From the NCBI GenBank assembly GCA_026417735.1, contig JAOACR010000004.1:77001-141000 (forward strand): a stretch of DNA of 64,000 bases, given 5' to 3'. Under the pieces are notes generated by a model. It had not been told where the DNA came from and did no database searches. It saw only the letters and a program-made list of their open reading frames with translations. The position numbers were made by a program, and so were the translations under genes. Of the stretch, positions 16,484 to 23,676 are shown piece by piece; position 1 is the stretch's first letter, and the number at the start of each line of letters is the position of its first letter. This DNA comes from Kiritimatiellia bacterium (lineage in GTDB: Bacteria > Verrucomicrobiota > Kiritimatiellia > PWTM01).

Positions 16484-18016
16484 TCAGCGGCCCACCTCGA
16501 TCTCGCCGATCGCGTAGAAACCGCCTGGCCGATGTCGGGCCGGACGCAGGGGGAGCACCACATCCCGCGAGGCCACCGGCGCATGCAGTTTGAACTGCAG
16601 CTCATATCGGCCCGCCGGCAGATCCGCCGGCAACACCAGCGCGTATTGTTCCGGCCAGCCGTCCGCTGGACCATTCGGCAGCCACCGGCTGTTGCCGGCG
16701 GCCACCGTGGTGGTGCATGTCGCCGAGCCCTGTAGACGGAAGCACAGTTCGTACTCCCGATACGCGCGCGCAACGCCGCGGTTGAACCAGGTCATCGCCA
16801 CGCGGTTGGTACCGCCGGGGCGCAGCGGTTCGGCGACTTCAACGTGGGATGGAAAATACCAATAACCGCACCGGTTGAGCAGCTCGACCGTCAGCGCGGG
16901 ATTGTCGGCGAGCCACTCGCGCGCGTAGCCGTGATATCCGATCCATGTGGCGCGCAGAAGTTCCAGCGCGCGTCGCAGCACGTCCGCACCGGTCAGACCT
17001 CCGCCCCGCTCGCCCAGCGGCGAACCGGGCCGCGGAATCCAGTTGCCGACGCGTTTCACATGCCCGTAGTGCTCCAACTCCAGCACCGTGGGACGATGCG
17101 GAGCGACGTCCGCAAACAGATGCGGCATCCGAACCGTGTAGTTCGTCATCAGGCTCCAGACGTACCCCTCCACCAGAATGCTGTCATCGCGATAGCTGAT
17201 GCCGGACCGCAGAATCTTCTCATGAAAGCGGCGCCGGTCATCCGGGGACTCGAGGCTAGCGACGTAGTCGTCCGAAATGACGAGTTGGCTCCGCCGGAAG
17301 TGTTTGAGATGCAAATCCACATGCCGGGCGAGCACGTCATAGCCGAACTTGCGGCGGCTGCCGGCCCAGGTGTGCCCCTCACCCCAATCACCAAAGCTGC
17401 CAATGTCCACATAGCGCACCCACGGCCGGCCGTCGTAGCGCGCCGCGAAAGCGGCCAGAAACGCGTCTAGTTTTTTCAGAAACACCGGATGACCGTAGTC
17501 CGGCTCCCAGGGCCAATCCGGGGGGCCTTGCTTGCCGTGGAAGCAGTGCTGGCCGGGGACGCCGGCATCTCGGACCCACCGTGGCGTTGCAAAGATTTGT
17601 TCGGGCCGGTTGCGGCCGGCGGTTTCTTTGCATGAGATCCGGAACGCAATGCCCAGCCCTCGGGACGTCCAGCGGGCGATCGGCTCGTCGAGCACGAGCC
17701 AGTTGAACTGCCCCTCGGCCGGTTCCAGATATGACCAGGCCAGCCGCAGGTAGACGTGATCCATGCCGGGAAACTCGGCGAGCTCCTCGTCCCGCTCCGC
17801 GAGGTATTTCTCGAGGCTGTTGTCGTAAAAGTGGTGGTACCAGCCCTTGTCGGGGTTCGGCAGCGGCGCGGTTTCATCCCAGTCGGGTCGCAAATCGAAA
17901 ACCGCGGCGCGAAGCACACCACAGCTGGCGGCGGCCAGGGCTGTGGCGATCGCCCGCCGCCATACGCGGCGGCCGGCGAAACGCGGCGGCAGTCGGTTTG
18001 GTCGGCCCGCGTTCAT
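16484..18016 (-). CDS. Secreted glycoside-hydrolase-like protein (DUF4874/DUF4832 type)
   Basis: 510 residues with a signal peptide (RRAIATALAAASCGVLRA). NPDKGWYHHFYDN resembles the NPxRG(F/W) opening of DUF4874. A (beta/alpha)8-like region follows (MDHVYLRLAWSYLEP, GIAFRISCKE, YVDIGSFGDWGEGHTW, VLELEHYGHV). The C-terminal part (FPSHVEVAEPLRPGGTNRVAMTWFNRGVA) matches the beta-sandwich of DUF4832 proteins. Related proteins are annotated as beta-galactosidase-like or unknown; Glu and Asp in FGDWGEG and LELEHYG could be catalytic. The ATG at 18016 places the signal peptide at the N terminus; an upstream frame extension to 18178 runs into comEC. It is 38 bp downstream of comEC on the same strand. 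Confidence 0.82.
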   Translation of the reverse strand: MNAGRPNRLPPRFAGRRVWRRAIATALAAASCGVLRAAVFDLRPDWDETAPLPNPDKGWYHHFYDNSLEKYLAERDEELAEFPGMDHVYLRLAWSYLEPAEGQFNWLVLDEPIARWTSRGLGIAFRISCKETAGRNRPEQIFATPRWVRDAGVPGQHCFHGKQGPPDWPWEPDYGHPVFLKKLDAFLAAFAARYDGRPWVRYVDIGSFGDWGEGHTWAGSRRKFGYDVLARHVDLHLKHFRRSQLVISDDYVASLESPDDRRRFHEKILRSGISYRDDSILVEGYVWSLMTNYTVRMPHLFADVAPHRPTVLELEHYGHVKRVGNWIPRPGSPLGERGGGLTGADVLRRALELLRATWIGYHGYAREWLADNPALTVELLNRCGYWYFPSHVEVAEPLRPGGTNRVAMTWFNRGVARAYREYELCFRLQGSATCTTTVAAGNSRWLPNGPADGWPEQYALVLPADLPAGRYELQFKLHAPVASRDVVLPLRPARHRPGGFYAIGEIEVGR

Positions 18017-18054: not shown

Positions 18055-21000
18055 TCACAACCCCCACATCAAATCGGTTCCGTCGTCCTCCTCGATGTCC
18101 CCGGCACCGGCAGCACGGGGCATCCACCGTCGGCCATCGGACTCGGCGACAACAGCGCCGGTGGCGGTCGTGAACCACGCGCCGGGGCCGAGGTGCTGCT
18201 GCACGAGCTGGCGGGCGAGCTCGACGAGCATCTCGCGCTGCCGGGTTGATGCGCCCGGCATCCCCGACGATCGCCCAAATTCCGCAACGACGACGTCCGC
18301 ACCGGTTAGCTCCAGCACCCGGCGGAGACCCGGTTCGAGCTCGCGTTCCGCACCAGCGCGATCCGCCGCGGGGATTGGCGGTGCGCCGTGGTGGGGCGCG
18401 CTGATCAGGTCCGCGCGGGCGAGCCCGCCGGCGCCGGCGAGCGCCTGCGCAAGATCGGCGGGCGAGAGGTCGGAGGTCAGCAGCGCAACCGCATCGCCGT
18501 GGACCACACGCAGCACCACCGAGCCGGCGTCAGGCGAAGGGGTTCCGGGAAGCGCGGCGTGCAGCACCTCGATGCGGAACTCGCCGGTGGGAGTGCTCTC
18601 GCGCAGGATCACCTCGCCGGCACGCGCGGTGCGCACGCGAGTGGCCCAGCCGGCCCATCGGTTCAGCGCGCCACCGGCGCGCGCACGCAGCGCACGCGCC
18701 AGCGACGGCCGCGCATACCGCCCGGGGTTGCCGACGAGGGTCGCATGCATCAGCGCGGCGAGCGGGGAATCGATCGGCAGTCCGAACTGCACCGCGAGCG
18801 ATTCGACGGAAAGCCCCAGGTCAATACCTTCGAAGGCGGGCGGCCGCCACAGCTCGCGCACCCAGAGGTGGTCCAGCAACCAGCCCGCGCCACCCGCCCG
18901 CTCGGGCCGCGGCGAGGTCAGCACCAGCGCGTCGAGCCGCCGGATGCCGCGGGAGGAAAGAAATGGCAGCACCGTGCGAATCGCCTCGTTGCGCCACGGG
19001 CGAGCGGGATCGGCCGGACCGGCGTCCACCAGCACCCGGCGGCCACTGGGAGTTTCGATCAGCGTCGCGCCGCCGTAGCCGACGGCCAGGAACGTCAGGC
19101 GCGGACGCTCCAGCCGCGCAGGACGCAGCGCGGCCGCCGCGACGAGCACCAACGCCGCGACGAGGCACCGCGCGACCCCGTCCACCCACGCGGGCCGCAG
19201 CTGCCAGGCCGCCAACCGCGCGACCGCCCACTCGCGAAGCGGCCGCCACCAGACGAACAGCGCACACAGGCCGTACCAGGCCCACAGGAACCAACCGCCC
19301 GGCTGGCGCACGAACGGATACGGGCAGGTTGCGGCGGCGACATGACCGAGCACCAGAAACAGCGTCGAGGCGAGCCAGTTTGCCGCGCCGAGCACCAGTG
19401 AGAGCCAGATGCCCACACCCGGAACCAGACCGACCAATCCGCCGATCGCGCCCAGCTGCACGATCACGCCGATCAGCGGAATCGCGATGAGGTTCGCCCA
19501 TGCTCCCGCCAGCGGCCAGCGGGCGAAATAGTAGGCGGACAGCGGAATCATCATGCCGATCTGAATCGCGCATTGCGCCGCAAAAAAGGTGAGCAACGGT
19601 GCGGGCAGTCGGCCCAGCGCAAACCAGTCCGGCCCGCGGACGCCACGCCGTTCGAGGATCACACCGGCGCGCCAGACCATCGTCCCGAGCAGCAGCGCGG
19701 GTCCCCAGAACTGCGGAGTTGTCACCAGCGGCCAGCGCAGAATCGCGAGCGCGGCCGCCGGAAGACCCAGCGCGAGCGCCGCGGCGAGCCGCGGCCCCCG
19801 CAGCGTCTCGAGCCGTTCCAGCACCGGCGGGGTGAGCAGTCCCAGTGAGAGGATTGCGCCGAACGACAACGTAAAGGAGGGGTCGGTGAGCACCAGGGGG
19901 TTGTGCGCGAGAATCAGTGCGGCCGCCACCGGCGCACCCAGCAGCACCGAGGCCCGCAGCCCTGCATGCAGGTACGCCCAGCTCAACAACATCAGGCCGT
20001 TCATGATCACCGCGCGCAACGTCGAGGGTCGCGCGCCGGTGACAATCGCGAACACCACCAGCGCGGCGAGGACCAGCGGCGTGTACACCTGACGCGGCAA
20101 CCGGATCGCCGAAAAGAGGCCGACAAACATCACCGTTAAAATCGTCACGTGCAGCCCGGACACCGCCAGCACATGGCTAATGCCGGCCGCCCGAAACTCG
20201 TCCGCAATGAACTCCGGACAGCCGCCGAACGGGCCGGGCGCCTGCAGCAGGCAGGGGACGTTTTGCAGCCCGTACCGCAGACCGAGCGTCACCGCGCCGA
20301 CGAAGGCGGAAGCTGGAAAGGGGATCGTCTCCTTGATCACGCGGGTCAGTCGGTCGCGCAGGTCCAACGAAAACGCGACCCAGGACGACCGGTACGGCGC
20401 ACGCTCCTCACCACCGGCCGGCAGCAGCCGCACCGGCGCCTCGCCGCCGCGCGCCGCCGGAAACATCACCGCCTGCACGCCGCCGGCGCGCAGATGCCGG
20501 CGCGGATCGAAACCGCCGGGGTTCGCCGCGCCACCCGGCAGCTGCAGCGCGCCAACCACCTCCACCAGCCGTCCGTACGCCGCGCTGGAGGACAGCCGAG
20601 CATAGTCGGGCATCTCGGGCCGGACCGTCACGTGCACCAGCCCCCCCTCGACCTGCATCCACGTGCCGCCGGCTGGCCATTCGATAAACTGCGGCAAGAC
20701 CGGCAGCACTGTTTTGAAGTCGTAAACGACCGGATCTCCGCTGACACGACCGATCAGCCGCAGCGGCGCCTGCCGCTCGCCGGAGCGCGCGAAGGACGCC
20801 ACCTCATTTAGAGAACGCCGCACCACAAACCGCGCCGGCCCGGTACCCCGAACCACTTCGATGCCGGTCAGCCGCGAAAACGGCGTCGCGAGCGTCCAGA
20901 CCCGGCCGGCGCGCTCGCCGGCGCGTACAGTGATCACATCGCTCGTGACCCCGATCGTGCCGCGCAGCGTCCACCAGCGGCCCCGCCGGTCCGCCAGCGG

Positions 21001-21435
21001 ACGTCCCTCGTCGTCCCGTTCGGGCACCCGCAGTTCGAGCTCACCAACCAGGCGAACTTCCAGATCGGCGGGCGGCGCCACCTGCAGCTGCAAGCGCGGA
21101 CGCGCTGCCTCAGAGAGCGCCGCGGCAGCGATATGCGCCGATCCGTCCGCGGCCAGCTCGATCCGAGCCCATTCACGCTCGGGTGAAACCACCGCGGCCC
21201 GGTGGCGGACCCAGCCGCCCGCCAGGCCCAGCAGGAGCGCGGCGAGCACTCCGCGCGTCGACCGGCCGGCACCCTGCACGCGGCGCGCGGCCATCGCGAG
21301 CGCGACGCCCGCTGCCCCCGGCAGCAACGCCGGCAGCACCACGGACCACGTCGCATCGGTCGGTGCCGCCCACGACAGCGCGATTCCCGCCACGAACGCG
21401 CCGCAGCCTGCGATGATCGCGCCCCTAACGCTCAT
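18055..21435 (-). CDS. comEC: ComEC/Rec2-family DNA-uptake channel with degenerate metallo-beta-lactamase domain
   Basis: 1126 residues, larger than the 750-850 typical of ComEC. The N-terminal DUF4131/OB-like region is extended. The Competence domain shows GISHVLAVSGLHVTIL and many membrane helices, then ends in a C-terminal metallo-beta-lactamase-like domain. ComEC carries single-stranded DNA across the inner membrane during transformation. In the C-terminal domain the usual DVGQGD is AVGYGG, and the zinc-binding HxHxDH site reads SPRPER (18898-18915). Later motifs are partly kept (LLTSDL, APHHGA). Nuclease activity is therefore doubtful. The ATG at 21435 overlaps the preceding small gene by 11 bp. 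It is the last of five tightly packed genes. Confidence 0.9.
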   Translation of the reverse strand: MSVRGAIIAGCGAFVAGIALSWAAPTDATWSVVLPALLPGAAGVALAMAARRVQGAGRSTRGVLAALLLGLAGGWVRHRAAVVSPEREWARIELAADGSAHIAAAALSEAARPRLQLQVAPPADLEVRLVGELELRVPERDDEGRPLADRRGRWWTLRGTIGVTSDVITVRAGERAGRVWTLATPFSRLTGIEVVRGTGPARFVVRRSLNEVASFARSGERQAPLRLIGRVSGDPVVYDFKTVLPVLPQFIEWPAGGTWMQVEGGLVHVTVRPEMPDYARLSSSAAYGRLVEVVGALQLPGGAANPGGFDPRRHLRAGGVQAVMFPAARGGEAPVRLLPAGGEERAPYRSSWVAFSLDLRDRLTRVIKETIPFPASAFVGAVTLGLRYGLQNVPCLLQAPGPFGGCPEFIADEFRAAGISHVLAVSGLHVTILTVMFVGLFSAIRLPRQVYTPLVLAALVVFAIVTGARPSTLRAVIMNGLMLLSWAYLHAGLRASVLLGAPVAAALILAHNPLVLTDPSFTLSFGAILSLGLLTPPVLERLETLRGPRLAAALALGLPAAALAILRWPLVTTPQFWGPALLLGTMVWRAGVILERRGVRGPDWFALGRLPAPLLTFFAAQCAIQIGMMIPLSAYYFARWPLAGAWANLIAIPLIGVIVQLGAIGGLVGLVPGVGIWLSLVLGAANWLASTLFLVLGHVAAATCPYPFVRQPGGWFLWAWYGLCALFVWWRPLREWAVARLAAWQLRPAWVDGVARCLVAALVLVAAAALRPARLERPRLTFLAVGYGGATLIETPSGRRVLVDAGPADPARPWRNEAIRTVLPFLSSRGIRRLDALVLTSPRPERAGGAGWLLDHLWVRELWRPPAFEGIDLGLSVESLAVQFGLPIDSPLAALMHATLVGNPGRYARPSLARALRARAGGALNRWAGWATRVRTARAGEVILRESTPTGEFRIEVLHAALPGTPSPDAGSVVLRVVHGDAVALLTSDLSPADLAQALAGAGGLARADLISAPHHGAPPIPAADRAGAERELEPGLRRVLELTGADVVVAEFGRSSGMPGASTRQREMLVELARQLVQQHLGPGAWFTTATGAVVAESDGRRWMPRAAGAGDIEEDDGTDLMWGL

Positions 21436-21625
21436 CGGCGGCGTCGGTGGTTCCAATGCCTGGATAGTAGCGGCTGTTGGAACGCCAGATCGGCGACTCT
21501 TCCGGCCGCCCGCGCCAGCGCGCAGAAACCGCGGCTCGATACTCCGGCCGCACAACCAGCACCGCGATCCCCACCGCCAATGCGCCGATCAAAATCGCCA
21601 GAAACCTCGAACCTCCCGTCTCCAT
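21425..21625 (-). CDS. Very small single-helix membrane protein
   Basis: 66 residues: a short N terminus (METGGSR), one transmembrane helix (about 8-26, FLAILIGALAVGIAVLVV) and a polar, Arg/Ser-rich C-terminal part (RWRGRPEESPIWRSNSRYY). No family recognised. It starts 3 bp after the previous small gene and its stop overlaps the comEC start by 11 bp. Both junctions point to translational coupling in the TRAM-NERD-ComEC operon. Confidence 0.6.
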   Translation of the reverse strand: METGGSRFLAILIGALAVGIAVLVVRPEYRAAVSARWRGRPEESPIWRSNSRYYPGIGTTDAADER

Positions 21626-21628
21626 TGT

Positions 21629-21835
21629 TCAATCTCCCGCCGCCGTTCCACCCCGTTCTCTGTCGCCGACCGCCAAACCCGCGAACACAAACAGGAACGC
21701 AAGGCAAGGCAAGAGTTCCACCGCCCCCTCCGGATCAAAGAAGATGTGACGGCGGCGTCCGGCAAGCCACAGCACGTACAACGCAAAGCCGGCGGTGTTG
21801 ATCGCCAGCACCCACCGCCGCCCGGCGCCGCGCAT
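21629..21835 (-). CDS. Small two-helix membrane protein
   Basis: 68 residues with two hydrophobic segments (WVLAINTAGFALYVLWLAG and LLPCLAFLFVFAGLAVG) separated by a short basic loop (RRRHIFFDPEGAVE). No family recognised. The A of its ATG is the last base of the TGA stop of the NERD gene (TGATG), a typical stop-restart junction. It is probably a membrane component made together with the NERD protein and ComEC. Confidence 0.62.
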   Translation of the reverse strand: MRGAGRRWVLAINTAGFALYVLWLAGRRRHIFFDPEGAVELLPCLAFLFVFAGLAVGDRERGGTAAGD

Positions 21836-22593
21836 CACATCGCCTCCTGGACGCGGCGGATCACTCGTTCGATGTCGTCCGGGCCGATCACGGGCGGCGC
21901 GGCAAGCCGCGCGGACCACCAGCGCGGCAGCTCCTCCGCCCGAACCAGCGGCAGGGGCCGGTCCGACTCAATGTTCAGCCGCACGTCCGGCGCGGCGAAG
22001 ACCACCAGCGGGTCCACCGGCACGTGGCCAAGCTGCGCGCCGGCCAGACACGCCCGCACCACGGTCACCTGCTGGCGGTTCTGCCGCAGCGGGTTGTCGA
22101 GCCGGCGGGACGGTCGGCCGGGCCGGTCCTGTCGCCAGGTCGTGTCCGTCGCGCGCCCGCTGAGCGTGCCGCCCCAGTTCTTCGTTTCAATCACCACGAC
22201 GCCGTGCGGGCCTACCACAAGGTGATCCACCTGAGCGCGGCGCAGACCGCTGCGGATCGAGAGGTCATTGAATACCGCGTGCCGGTCGTCGAGCTCCGCA
22301 AGTCGGTCGGCGACGCGGTGTTCGCCGCCGCGTCCGATACGAAGCATCCGATCTTCTTCTACGTCCTGACGGCTTTTCCAGCCGTGCCCGACCGCCAGCA
22401 CCACCGCCGCCCCCGCCGCCGCCAGCCACGGTGCCGCGCGACCGCCGCGCGCCACCGTGACGGCCGCCAACACCCCACACACCACAGCGGCGGCCGCCTC
22501 CAGCGGCACGAGGCGCTTCAGCCGTCGCGCCTCCGACCGCACCGCATCTCGGCGCTCGGCCAGCGAGGACTCCGTCGTCAACACCCGGGCCAT
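21835..22593 (-). CDS. Membrane-anchored NERD-domain nuclease-like protein
   Basis: 252 residues. Two transmembrane helices (about 31-48 and 53-69) precede a NERD (nuclease-related) domain from about residue 86. Its PD-(D/E)xK-type residues look complete: Glu91 in GGEHRVADRL, Asp123 in VDHLVV, and Glu136/Lys138 in VIETKNWGG. The domain is related to restriction-endonuclease folds and is predicted to cleave DNA. The C-terminal helices (GPDDIERVIRRVQEAM) are amphipathic. It begins 3 bp after the TRAM-repeat gene and is followed by two small membrane genes and comEC. A role in DNA processing at the membrane is inferred from this context. Confidence 0.85.
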   Translation of the reverse strand: MARVLTTESSLAERRDAVRSEARRLKRLVPLEAAAAVVCGVLAAVTVARGGRAAPWLAAAGAAVVLAVGHGWKSRQDVEEDRMLRIGRGGEHRVADRLAELDDRHAVFNDLSIRSGLRRAQVDHLVVGPHGVVVIETKNWGGTLSGRATDTTWRQDRPGRPSRRLDNPLRQNRQQVTVVRACLAGAQLGHVPVDPLVVFAAPDVRLNIESDRPLPLVRAEELPRWWSARLAAPPVIGPDDIERVIRRVQEAM

Positions 22594-22596
22594 GGT

Positions 22597-23676
22597 TCAG
22601 GGGGCATCGGTCAACCGCTCCGCCACCGCATGTCGTTCGCGGATCTCGAGGATTCGCACGCGGAGCGTCTGACCGGTCTGCGTGCCGGGCACGATCACCG
22701 GAAATCCGCCGACGCGCGCAACCCCGTCGCGATCCGGCGCCCGGTACGCGCGTTCCGTGATGGTCACCTCCAGCACGTCGCCCACCCTGAGCGGGCCGCT
22801 GCCACCCGACGGTCCACCGCCCTCCGCCCGCAACTTCGCAACCAGCCGCCCGGTCGCAGACCGCTCCCCGCGCCGCACAATCTCAAACACGACGCGCTCA
22901 CCCGCCGCCGCCCCAGGGATGTACACCGGCAGACCGTCGAGCATCACGCGCCCGTCGCCCCGGCTGCCCACCCCCTCAACCACTGCGGTGTGCAGGTTTG
23001 CCGGCGGCACGGGTACGGGCTCGGCACCACCCTCGGCCGGCAGCTTCTCCACTAGACGCCCGATCGCGGACCGCTCCCCGCGCCGCACAATCTCAAACAC
23101 GACACGCTCACCCGCCGCCGCCCCGGGGATGTACACCGGTAGACCGTCGAGCATCACGCGCCCGTCACCCCGGCTGCCCACCCCCTCAACCACTGCGGTG
23201 TGCAGGTTTGCCGGCGGCGCCGGCGGTGCGGCAGCTCCCTGCGCGAGCTGCACGGCCGGCACAGCGGACTCCGGTGGGCCCAGCGGCACCGCCTCCGCAA
23301 TGGTCCCGCGCAGCGAGATCACCTCCACCGTTCGGACCTCACCGGCTCGTGCCCCGCTCACGAATGTGACGCGACCACCGATCCGCGCGACGCCATCCGC
23401 CTGTTGCCGCGCTGCCTCCTCAATCCGCACGCGATAGCGACCGCCCACCCTCGGCGGCACGTCCGGATGCGCCAGCACATCGAGCGTCGTGCCGAGGTTG
23501 AGGCTCAACGCCGCGCTCTCCTCTACCGACAGGTGGCGGCGGACCACTTCCGGCGCCTCCGGCCGTGCGCCCCAGGCCAGTCGAATTGCTGCGCCCCCAG
23601 CCACCAGCGAGACCGCCAGCAACAGCCAGCCGGGTGGCGCAGAACGGGGGTAGGAATCGGACAGCGGGTTCGTCAT
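22597..23676 (-). CDS. Membrane-anchored protein with four TRAM-like repeats
   Basis: 359 residues. One N-terminal transmembrane helix (about 16-36) is followed by four OB-fold units resembling the TRAM domain (RNA binding): about 76-133, 155-216, 225-286 and 290-355. Units two and three are almost identical over about 60 residues (AVVEGVGSRGDGRV, LPVYIPGAAAGERVVFEI). Unit four (DRDGVARVGGFPVIVPG) and unit one (ADGVARIGGRVTFVSG) are divergent. TRAM domains normally bind RNA as parts of RimO/MiaB, RlmD/RumA or archaeal chaperones; a membrane-tethered array is unusual. I chose the ATG at 23676, with GGGAG upstream, over the one at 23715. It is the first gene of the operon ending in comEC. Confidence 0.72.
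   Translation of the reverse strand: MTNPLSDSYPRSAPPGWLLLAVSLVAGGAAIRLAWGARPEAPEVVRRHLSVEESAALSLNLGTTLDVLAHPDVPPRVGGRYRVRIEEAARQQADGVARIGGRVTFVSGARAGEVRTVEVISLRGTIAEAVPLGPPESAVPAVQLAQGAAAPPAPPANLHTAVVEGVGSRGDGRVMLDGLPVYIPGAAAGERVVFEIVRRGERSAIGRLVEKLPAEGGAEPVPVPPANLHTAVVEGVGSRGDGRVMLDGLPVYIPGAAAGERVVFEIVRRGERSATGRLVAKLRAEGGGPSGGSGPLRVGDVLEVTITERAYRAPDRDGVARVGGFPVIVPGTQTGQTLRVRILEIRERHAVAERLTDAP
22850..23218. repeat. Tandem in-frame duplication, period 210 bp
   Basis: The stretch from about 22850 to 23008 recurs almost unchanged at about 23060 to 23218; for example CACTGCGGTG is at 22981 and 23191. The period is 210 bp, exactly 70 codons. Most differences are single transitions. It duplicates one TRAM-like unit inside the membrane protein gene and looks recent. 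Confidence 0.9.

Follow-up and report, generated by a model that had tools for sequence, protein, structure and literature searches.

A conserved and apparently undescribed ComEC-based membrane system with NERD, TRAM and small membrane partners in Kiritimatiellia and related bacteria

Introduction

Among described systems, those closest to the locus analysed here are the ComEC/Rec2 channels of competence and the membrane proteins that carry a NERD domain. In Streptococcus pneumoniae, a ComEC with substituted metal ligands is paired with a separate membrane nuclease, EndA, and the fate of the non-transported strand in systems where ComEC has no β-lactamase-like domain is a named open question (PMC8579336). 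SmdA of Staphylococcus combines an N-terminal transmembrane (TM) segment with a cytoplasmic NERD domain, and the nuclease activity of NERD domains has not been studied experimentally (PMC9040797). NERD domains are also found in PglW of BREX systems and in MAD6, in both cases within large kinase-bearing proteins.

The locus described here lies in a 64,000-nucleotide stretch of DNA from a Kiritimatiellia bacterium (contig JAOACR010000004.1), referred to below as the window, and brings together a ComEC paralogue, a NERD protein, an array of TRAM units and two small membrane proteins, M1 and M2. It represents a conserved ComEC-based membrane system that has apparently escaped description: the open-access literature (with subscription papers and preprints mostly outside the search) yielded no description of ComEC with NERD, TRAM or DHH partners, or of ComEC in Kiritimatiellota, in keeping with an initial annotation of the window, whose author knew of no described system of this composition.

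Results

Five genes lie on the minus strand of the window, in the 5′ to 3′ order TRAM array (22597..23676; 359 aa), NERD nuclease (21835..22593; 252 aa, predicted to be a membrane protein), M1 (21629..21835; a 68-aa two-TM hairpin of an uncharacterised family), M2 (21425..21625; 66 aa, with one TM segment and a conserved tail) and a ComEC paralogue, here termed type A (18055..21435; 1126 aa). Their junctions are, in the same order, a 3-bp gap, a TGATG with a 1-base overlap, a 3-bp gap and an 11-bp overlap. This run of abutting or overlapping genes had been reported in the initial annotation and is exact to the base on rechecking of the open reading frame coordinates, just as the identities it assigned to the TRAM, NERD and ComEC proteins hold in both Pfam and NCBIfam. 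Comparison with the congener G001 shows purifying selection on each of the five genes (pN/pS 0.34 and 0.32, then 0.28 for M1, 0.26 for M2 and 0.32), which, together with recurrence of the same order in many genomes, excludes chance. A downstream DUF4832 gene (16484-18016) was considered as a sixth member and rejected, being seen in the congener only (with fragments at locus L025), amongst flanks that are not conserved. No gene for ComEA, ComF or a pilus component lies within the conserved five-gene unit, and the operon holds no energy-providing subunit of the ComFA kind.

The TRAM-array protein begins with an N-terminal TM segment (about residues 13-31), followed by four TRAM units joined by linkers rich in proline, glycine and glutamate, and matches both the Pfam TRAM family (PF01938; 8.6e-22, in four stretches) and NCBIfam PyTRAM (5.9e-30). 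The four TRAM-like units counted from the sequence at the outset could be placed at residues 78-130, 156-207, 226-277 and 299-353. Units 2 and 3 arose by recent tandem duplication, with a period of 210 bp (window positions 22840-23215), in which 145 of the first 150 bases are identical, and unit number among relatives ranges from two to four. Charges flanking the TM segment are ambiguous in the window copy and, in several orthologues, favour a TRAM array outside the membrane; we propose that the array is a tethered nucleic-acid receptor.

In the second protein, Pfam places a NERD domain (PF08378; 4.9e-26, 91.9 bits against a cut-off of 22.1) at residues 87-199, downstream of a hydrophobic N-terminal region in which a simple hydropathy scan finds one or two TM segments. 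A positively charged N-terminus precedes the hydrophobic segment or segments, and the NERD domain is predicted to be cytoplasmic where two are detected. The PD-(D/E)xK-like residues E91, D123, E136 and K138, noted earlier as intact, proved invariant in the 12 orthologues aligned. A plasmid search returned distant NERD domains only, and nowhere was 80% of the query covered. M1 and M2 have no match in Pfam or NCBIfam; M1 is conserved in position and sequence across relatives, and alignment of M2 reveals a conserved tail motif, S[PA]IWxSNxxYY, after its single TM segment.

Type A ComEC comprises N-terminal TM segments, a beta-rich/OB region, a Competence channel and a metallo-beta-lactamase fold. 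The Competence domain (PF03772; residues 410-731) passes its cut-off at 2.7e-36 and the OB-type DUF4131 domain does so at 1.1e-9 (38.6 bits against 31.6), and the equivalog cut-off of TIGR00361 in NCBIfam is missed (113.9 bits against 190.05). The channel motifs HVLAVSGLHVT and TGARPSTLRAVIMN are nearly invariant whilst the HxDxDH metal motif is absent from all 18 copies, mostly replaced by SPxPER or similar, which argues that selection keeps the channel and not the metallo-beta-lactamase site. Foldseek pairs the structural model (mean pLDDT 71) most closely, among solved structures, with 9ic4, a ComEC β-lactamase-like domain (TMt 0.81, 22% identity), so the fold is kept without its metal site. 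Loss of the site was considered as a trait unique to the five-gene system and this was rejected, as an intact HxDxDH is missing from nearly all of the canonical copies in the class as well (e.g. loci L067-L076); across the class at large, ComEC may have lost its nuclease.

A second, canonical ComEC is encoded in the window genome (G000:C9:203505), and canonical ComEC is present in 38 of 38 relatives, with or without the operon, alongside DprA in 36 of the 38. A tree of 50 ComEC proteins, built with a short search and carrying SH-aLRT support only, recovers a canonical clade (100), type A (100) and a further group, type B (99), and places A and B together at 100. Judged by these sequence relationships, the operon ComEC is an ancient paralogue, distinct from the competence ComEC of the same genome, and the tree gives type A the look of stable inheritance within families. 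In one class relative the canonical ComEC match (G018:C1:1409676-1410500; L057) contains three in-frame TAG codons and that genome also has a split DprA match, for which TAG recoding or assembly frameshifts may be responsible.

It is well supported that the five genes form one conserved unit. The order TRAM-NERD-M1-M2-ComEC is contiguous on one strand in ten genomes from several families in a first sample of relatives. A scan of GTDB, which overlaps with that sample so that the counts are not additive, returned 24 NERD proteins that are close orthologues at a profile E below 1e-60: the full order is seen at 19 (in one of them the TRAM gene is cut by a contig end), two follow the order until the contig ends after M1, and three stand alone. 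Roughly 33 more distant NERD proteins from many phyla lie without any of the partners. Titles of the genomes bearing the GTDB loci are mostly Kiritimatiellae or Kiritimatiellia, with some Verrucomicrobia, Lentisphaerae or PVC. In the 3 kb to each side, genes are shared among near relatives only, giving the unit sharp edges, and the synteny in distant genera that the initial annotation had named as support for a system is therefore found, with at least 19 loci in the full order amid non-conserved flanks. Across 241 genomes of the phylum, a NERD orthologue (E<1e-50; the next match stands at 1e-25) occurs in 17 and type A ComEC (E=0) in the identical 17, genomes that are related to one another, such that no simple probability is claimed.

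Where the genes are unlinked, they tend to be kept, and such lineages tell more than the matching genome sets do. In six genomes of one family (f24) a tandem NERD pair lies apart from an M2-ComEC cassette, with the TRAM gene upstream of the NERD pair in the five neighbourhoods examined and M1 near the M2-ComEC cassette in four of the six. A further genome (G007) holds TRAM, M1, M2 and ComEC together and NERD elsewhere, and a metagenome-assembled genome (MAG) labelled Chlamydiae (G252) has all five parts on three contigs (NERD; the TRAM protein; M1-M2-ComEC). Another MAG (G253) carries NERD and ComEC on separate contigs, and the stretches examined yielded no M1, M2 or TRAM protein; spread outside the sampled phylum is known from these two MAGs of uncertain placement only. 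G008 and G012 look like exceptions, but in both of them the contig ends at ComEC (L078 and L082), so that any genes upstream would be lost from view. Scattering of the genes before comEC, which had been named as grounds for abandoning the idea of a system, does occur in a few lineages; the parts are mostly retained there, which argues for a system and not against one. Conserved order and co-retention rule out chance adjacency of the five genes, and, taken with the non-conserved flanks, they strongly support a dedicated system of unusual composition.

Variations on the layout were also seen. The TRAM-NERD-NERD tandem cassette of the f24 family (L180, L181, L182, L183 and L189) has no ComEC alongside, ComEC being found with M2 elsewhere in the genome. 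In the same family, at L221, M1 and M2 are separated by a cation-efflux-like gene. At an expanded locus (L032, G029), the five-gene set is preceded by an additional NERD gene and followed by an additional TRAM gene.

Type B ComEC has a partner of a different kind. At L079, L080, L081, L083, L084, L085, L187 and L188 it adjoins a protein of about 630 aa, which it follows with a 4-base overlap in most copies and for which Pfam gives no family match and searches of PDB sequences and PHROG gave nothing useful. With an AlphaFold model (pLDDT 81) as Foldseek query, the top matches are 6mtz (3.5e-5), 5cet (2.6e-3) and 5xsp (2.9e-3), and the partner is modelled as a DHH-fold phosphoesterase through its likeness to 6mtz, Rv2837c and GdpP. 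GGDxDT, D240, DHH at 268-270 and GGH at 501-503 are invariant, the leading His of motif I being Gly; the notion that motif I is missing was discarded, as GGDxDT at 181-186 (A2 numbering) fits it save for that His. The C-terminus consists of a TM helix and a tail with an invariant SNxxF, which align with M2 and its SNxxY. This fusion of an M2-like membrane segment and SN..F motif to the tail of a DHH phosphodiesterase is the reason that M2 looks like a part coupling a nuclease to the channel. This ComEC lineage has thus taken two unrelated phosphodiesterases as partners, independently of one another, and an M2-like element comes with both. The DHH-fold partner is also found outside the class, in G141, G153 and G226; in the last, a genome 84% complete, it is present with no ComEC match.

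Discussion

That nucleic acid is handled at the membrane follows from the protein families involved. The initial annotation had proposed a dedicated envelope machine for capture and uptake of DNA or RNA: gene order, co-retention and family membership uphold one membrane unit that handles nucleic acid, whilst capture and uptake are what we infer beyond that. In the mechanism we propose, the five proteins would assemble in the membrane into a single complex, by which single-stranded nucleic acid would be imported and cut on entry. DNA or RNA would be bound by the tethered TRAM array, a ComEA-like part that probably sits at the outer side of the inner membrane; the ComEC paralogue would provide the channel, with its OB and non-catalytic metallo-beta-lactamase domains guiding the strand; NERD, predicted to be cytoplasmic by way of its hydrophobic N-terminal anchor, would cleave the strand at the exit; and M2, with M1, would dock the nuclease on the channel. 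DHH superfamily domains are usually cytoplasmic, and if this is so in the sister protein its M2-like tail would emerge on the outer side of the membrane, within reach of the extracytoplasmic domains of ComEC, and could by contact with them keep the nuclease close to the pore.

In this scheme the complex itself, its topology, its transport activity, its substrate and its purpose are predictions, and the function as a whole is moderately supported. We give roughly even chances to the view that the five-gene complex imports and cleaves nucleic acid for salvage or destruction rather than transformation, the former being likelier because canonical ComEC and DprA are also in the genome. Somewhat more tentatively, at a little short of even chances, we suggest an undescribed class of import-and-cut machines in which an ancient ComEC paralogue lineage, having given up its own nuclease domain, would be served by cytoplasmic phosphodiesterases in two interchangeable versions (NERD with TRAM, M1 and M2, or a DHH protein with an M2-like tail), for salvage and not recombination. 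Against the five-gene mechanism stand the position of a cytoplasmic NERD on the opposite side from known entry nucleases, the lack of a ComFA-like energy subunit in the operon, the ambiguous TRAM topology of the window copy with one or two NERD TM segments, and the fact that HxDxDH loss is not specific to the system.

The same pairing of channel and nuclease could belong to a variant natural-transformation apparatus, in which the imported strand would be recombined and NERD would trim or nick in the manner of EndA; S. pneumoniae itself pairs a ComEC CTD with substituted metal ligands with EndA (PMC8579336), and DprA is widespread among the relatives. We consider this unlikely, given that canonical ComEC is universal in the relatives regardless of the operon, that a NERD domain at its predicted cytoplasmic position would destroy the transforming strand, and that ComEA, ComF and pilus genes are absent from the conserved unit. 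The strict co-occurrence of NERD with a ComEC channel also makes it distinctly unlikely that the proteins act on nucleic acid or in the cell envelope as a membrane-tethered set with no transport involved. SmdA, a membrane NERD protein with a role in cell division and morphology and no shown nuclease activity, offers a precedent, but it is without several of the most conserved NERD residues (PMC9040797), whereas the catalytic ones are invariant in the operon protein. Defence at the membrane, through destruction of phage or plasmid DNA that invades the cell, is very unlikely: although the window NERD matches the profiles of both PglW and MAD6, it does so over the NERD part only, this is the sole shared part, PADLOC gives no match beyond partial NERD-domain matches (chiefly PglW), inheritance looks stable within families and not patchy, and the flanks are ordinary. 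An outward channel exporting nucleic acid or an oligonucleotide signal is scarcely credible, for although sequence does not fix direction and the sister partner falls in the superfamily of GdpP and Rv2837c, the characterised ComEC proteins in the literature examined are all importers.

Should the machine prove to serve salvage, feeding on DNA or RNA would have a dedicated channel apart from that of transformation. What NERD domains do in bacteria is largely untested (PMC9040797), and the operon offers a fixed channel-nuclease pair, together with two uncharacterised small membrane families that come with an adaptor hypothesis and a natural partner swap.

Comparison with known systems

The sister partner shares its predicted fold with DHH/DHHA1 phosphoesterases (Rv2837c, GdpP and H. 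pylori 6mtz), from which it differs in an extra N-terminal region, an M2-like tail anchor, a place adjoining a ComEC paralogue and the lack of a Pfam match. PglW and MAD6 have the NERD domain in common with the operon, where it is found not in a large kinase-bearing protein but in a free-standing membrane protein encoded with ComEC. SmdA resembles the operon NERD protein as predicted, with an N-terminal TM segment and a cytoplasmic NERD domain, but is monocistronic and without several conserved NERD residues (PMC9040797). The pairing of EndA with ComEC in S. pneumoniae is alike in combining substituted metal ligands with a separate membrane nuclease (PMC8579336); however, EndA is a different nuclease on the external face, the operon NERD is PD-(D/E)xK-like and predicted to be cytoplasmic, and TRAM, M1 and M2 have no counterpart there. 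With ComEC/Rec2 itself, type A ComEC shares a Competence domain with the SGLHV motif, the DUF4131/OB region and the metallo-beta-lactamase fold, yet it forms a strongly supported clade of its own, apart from the canonical copies that those genomes also encode, has no HxDxDH, falls below the TIGR00361 cut-off and keeps fixed partners in TRAM, NERD, M1 and M2.
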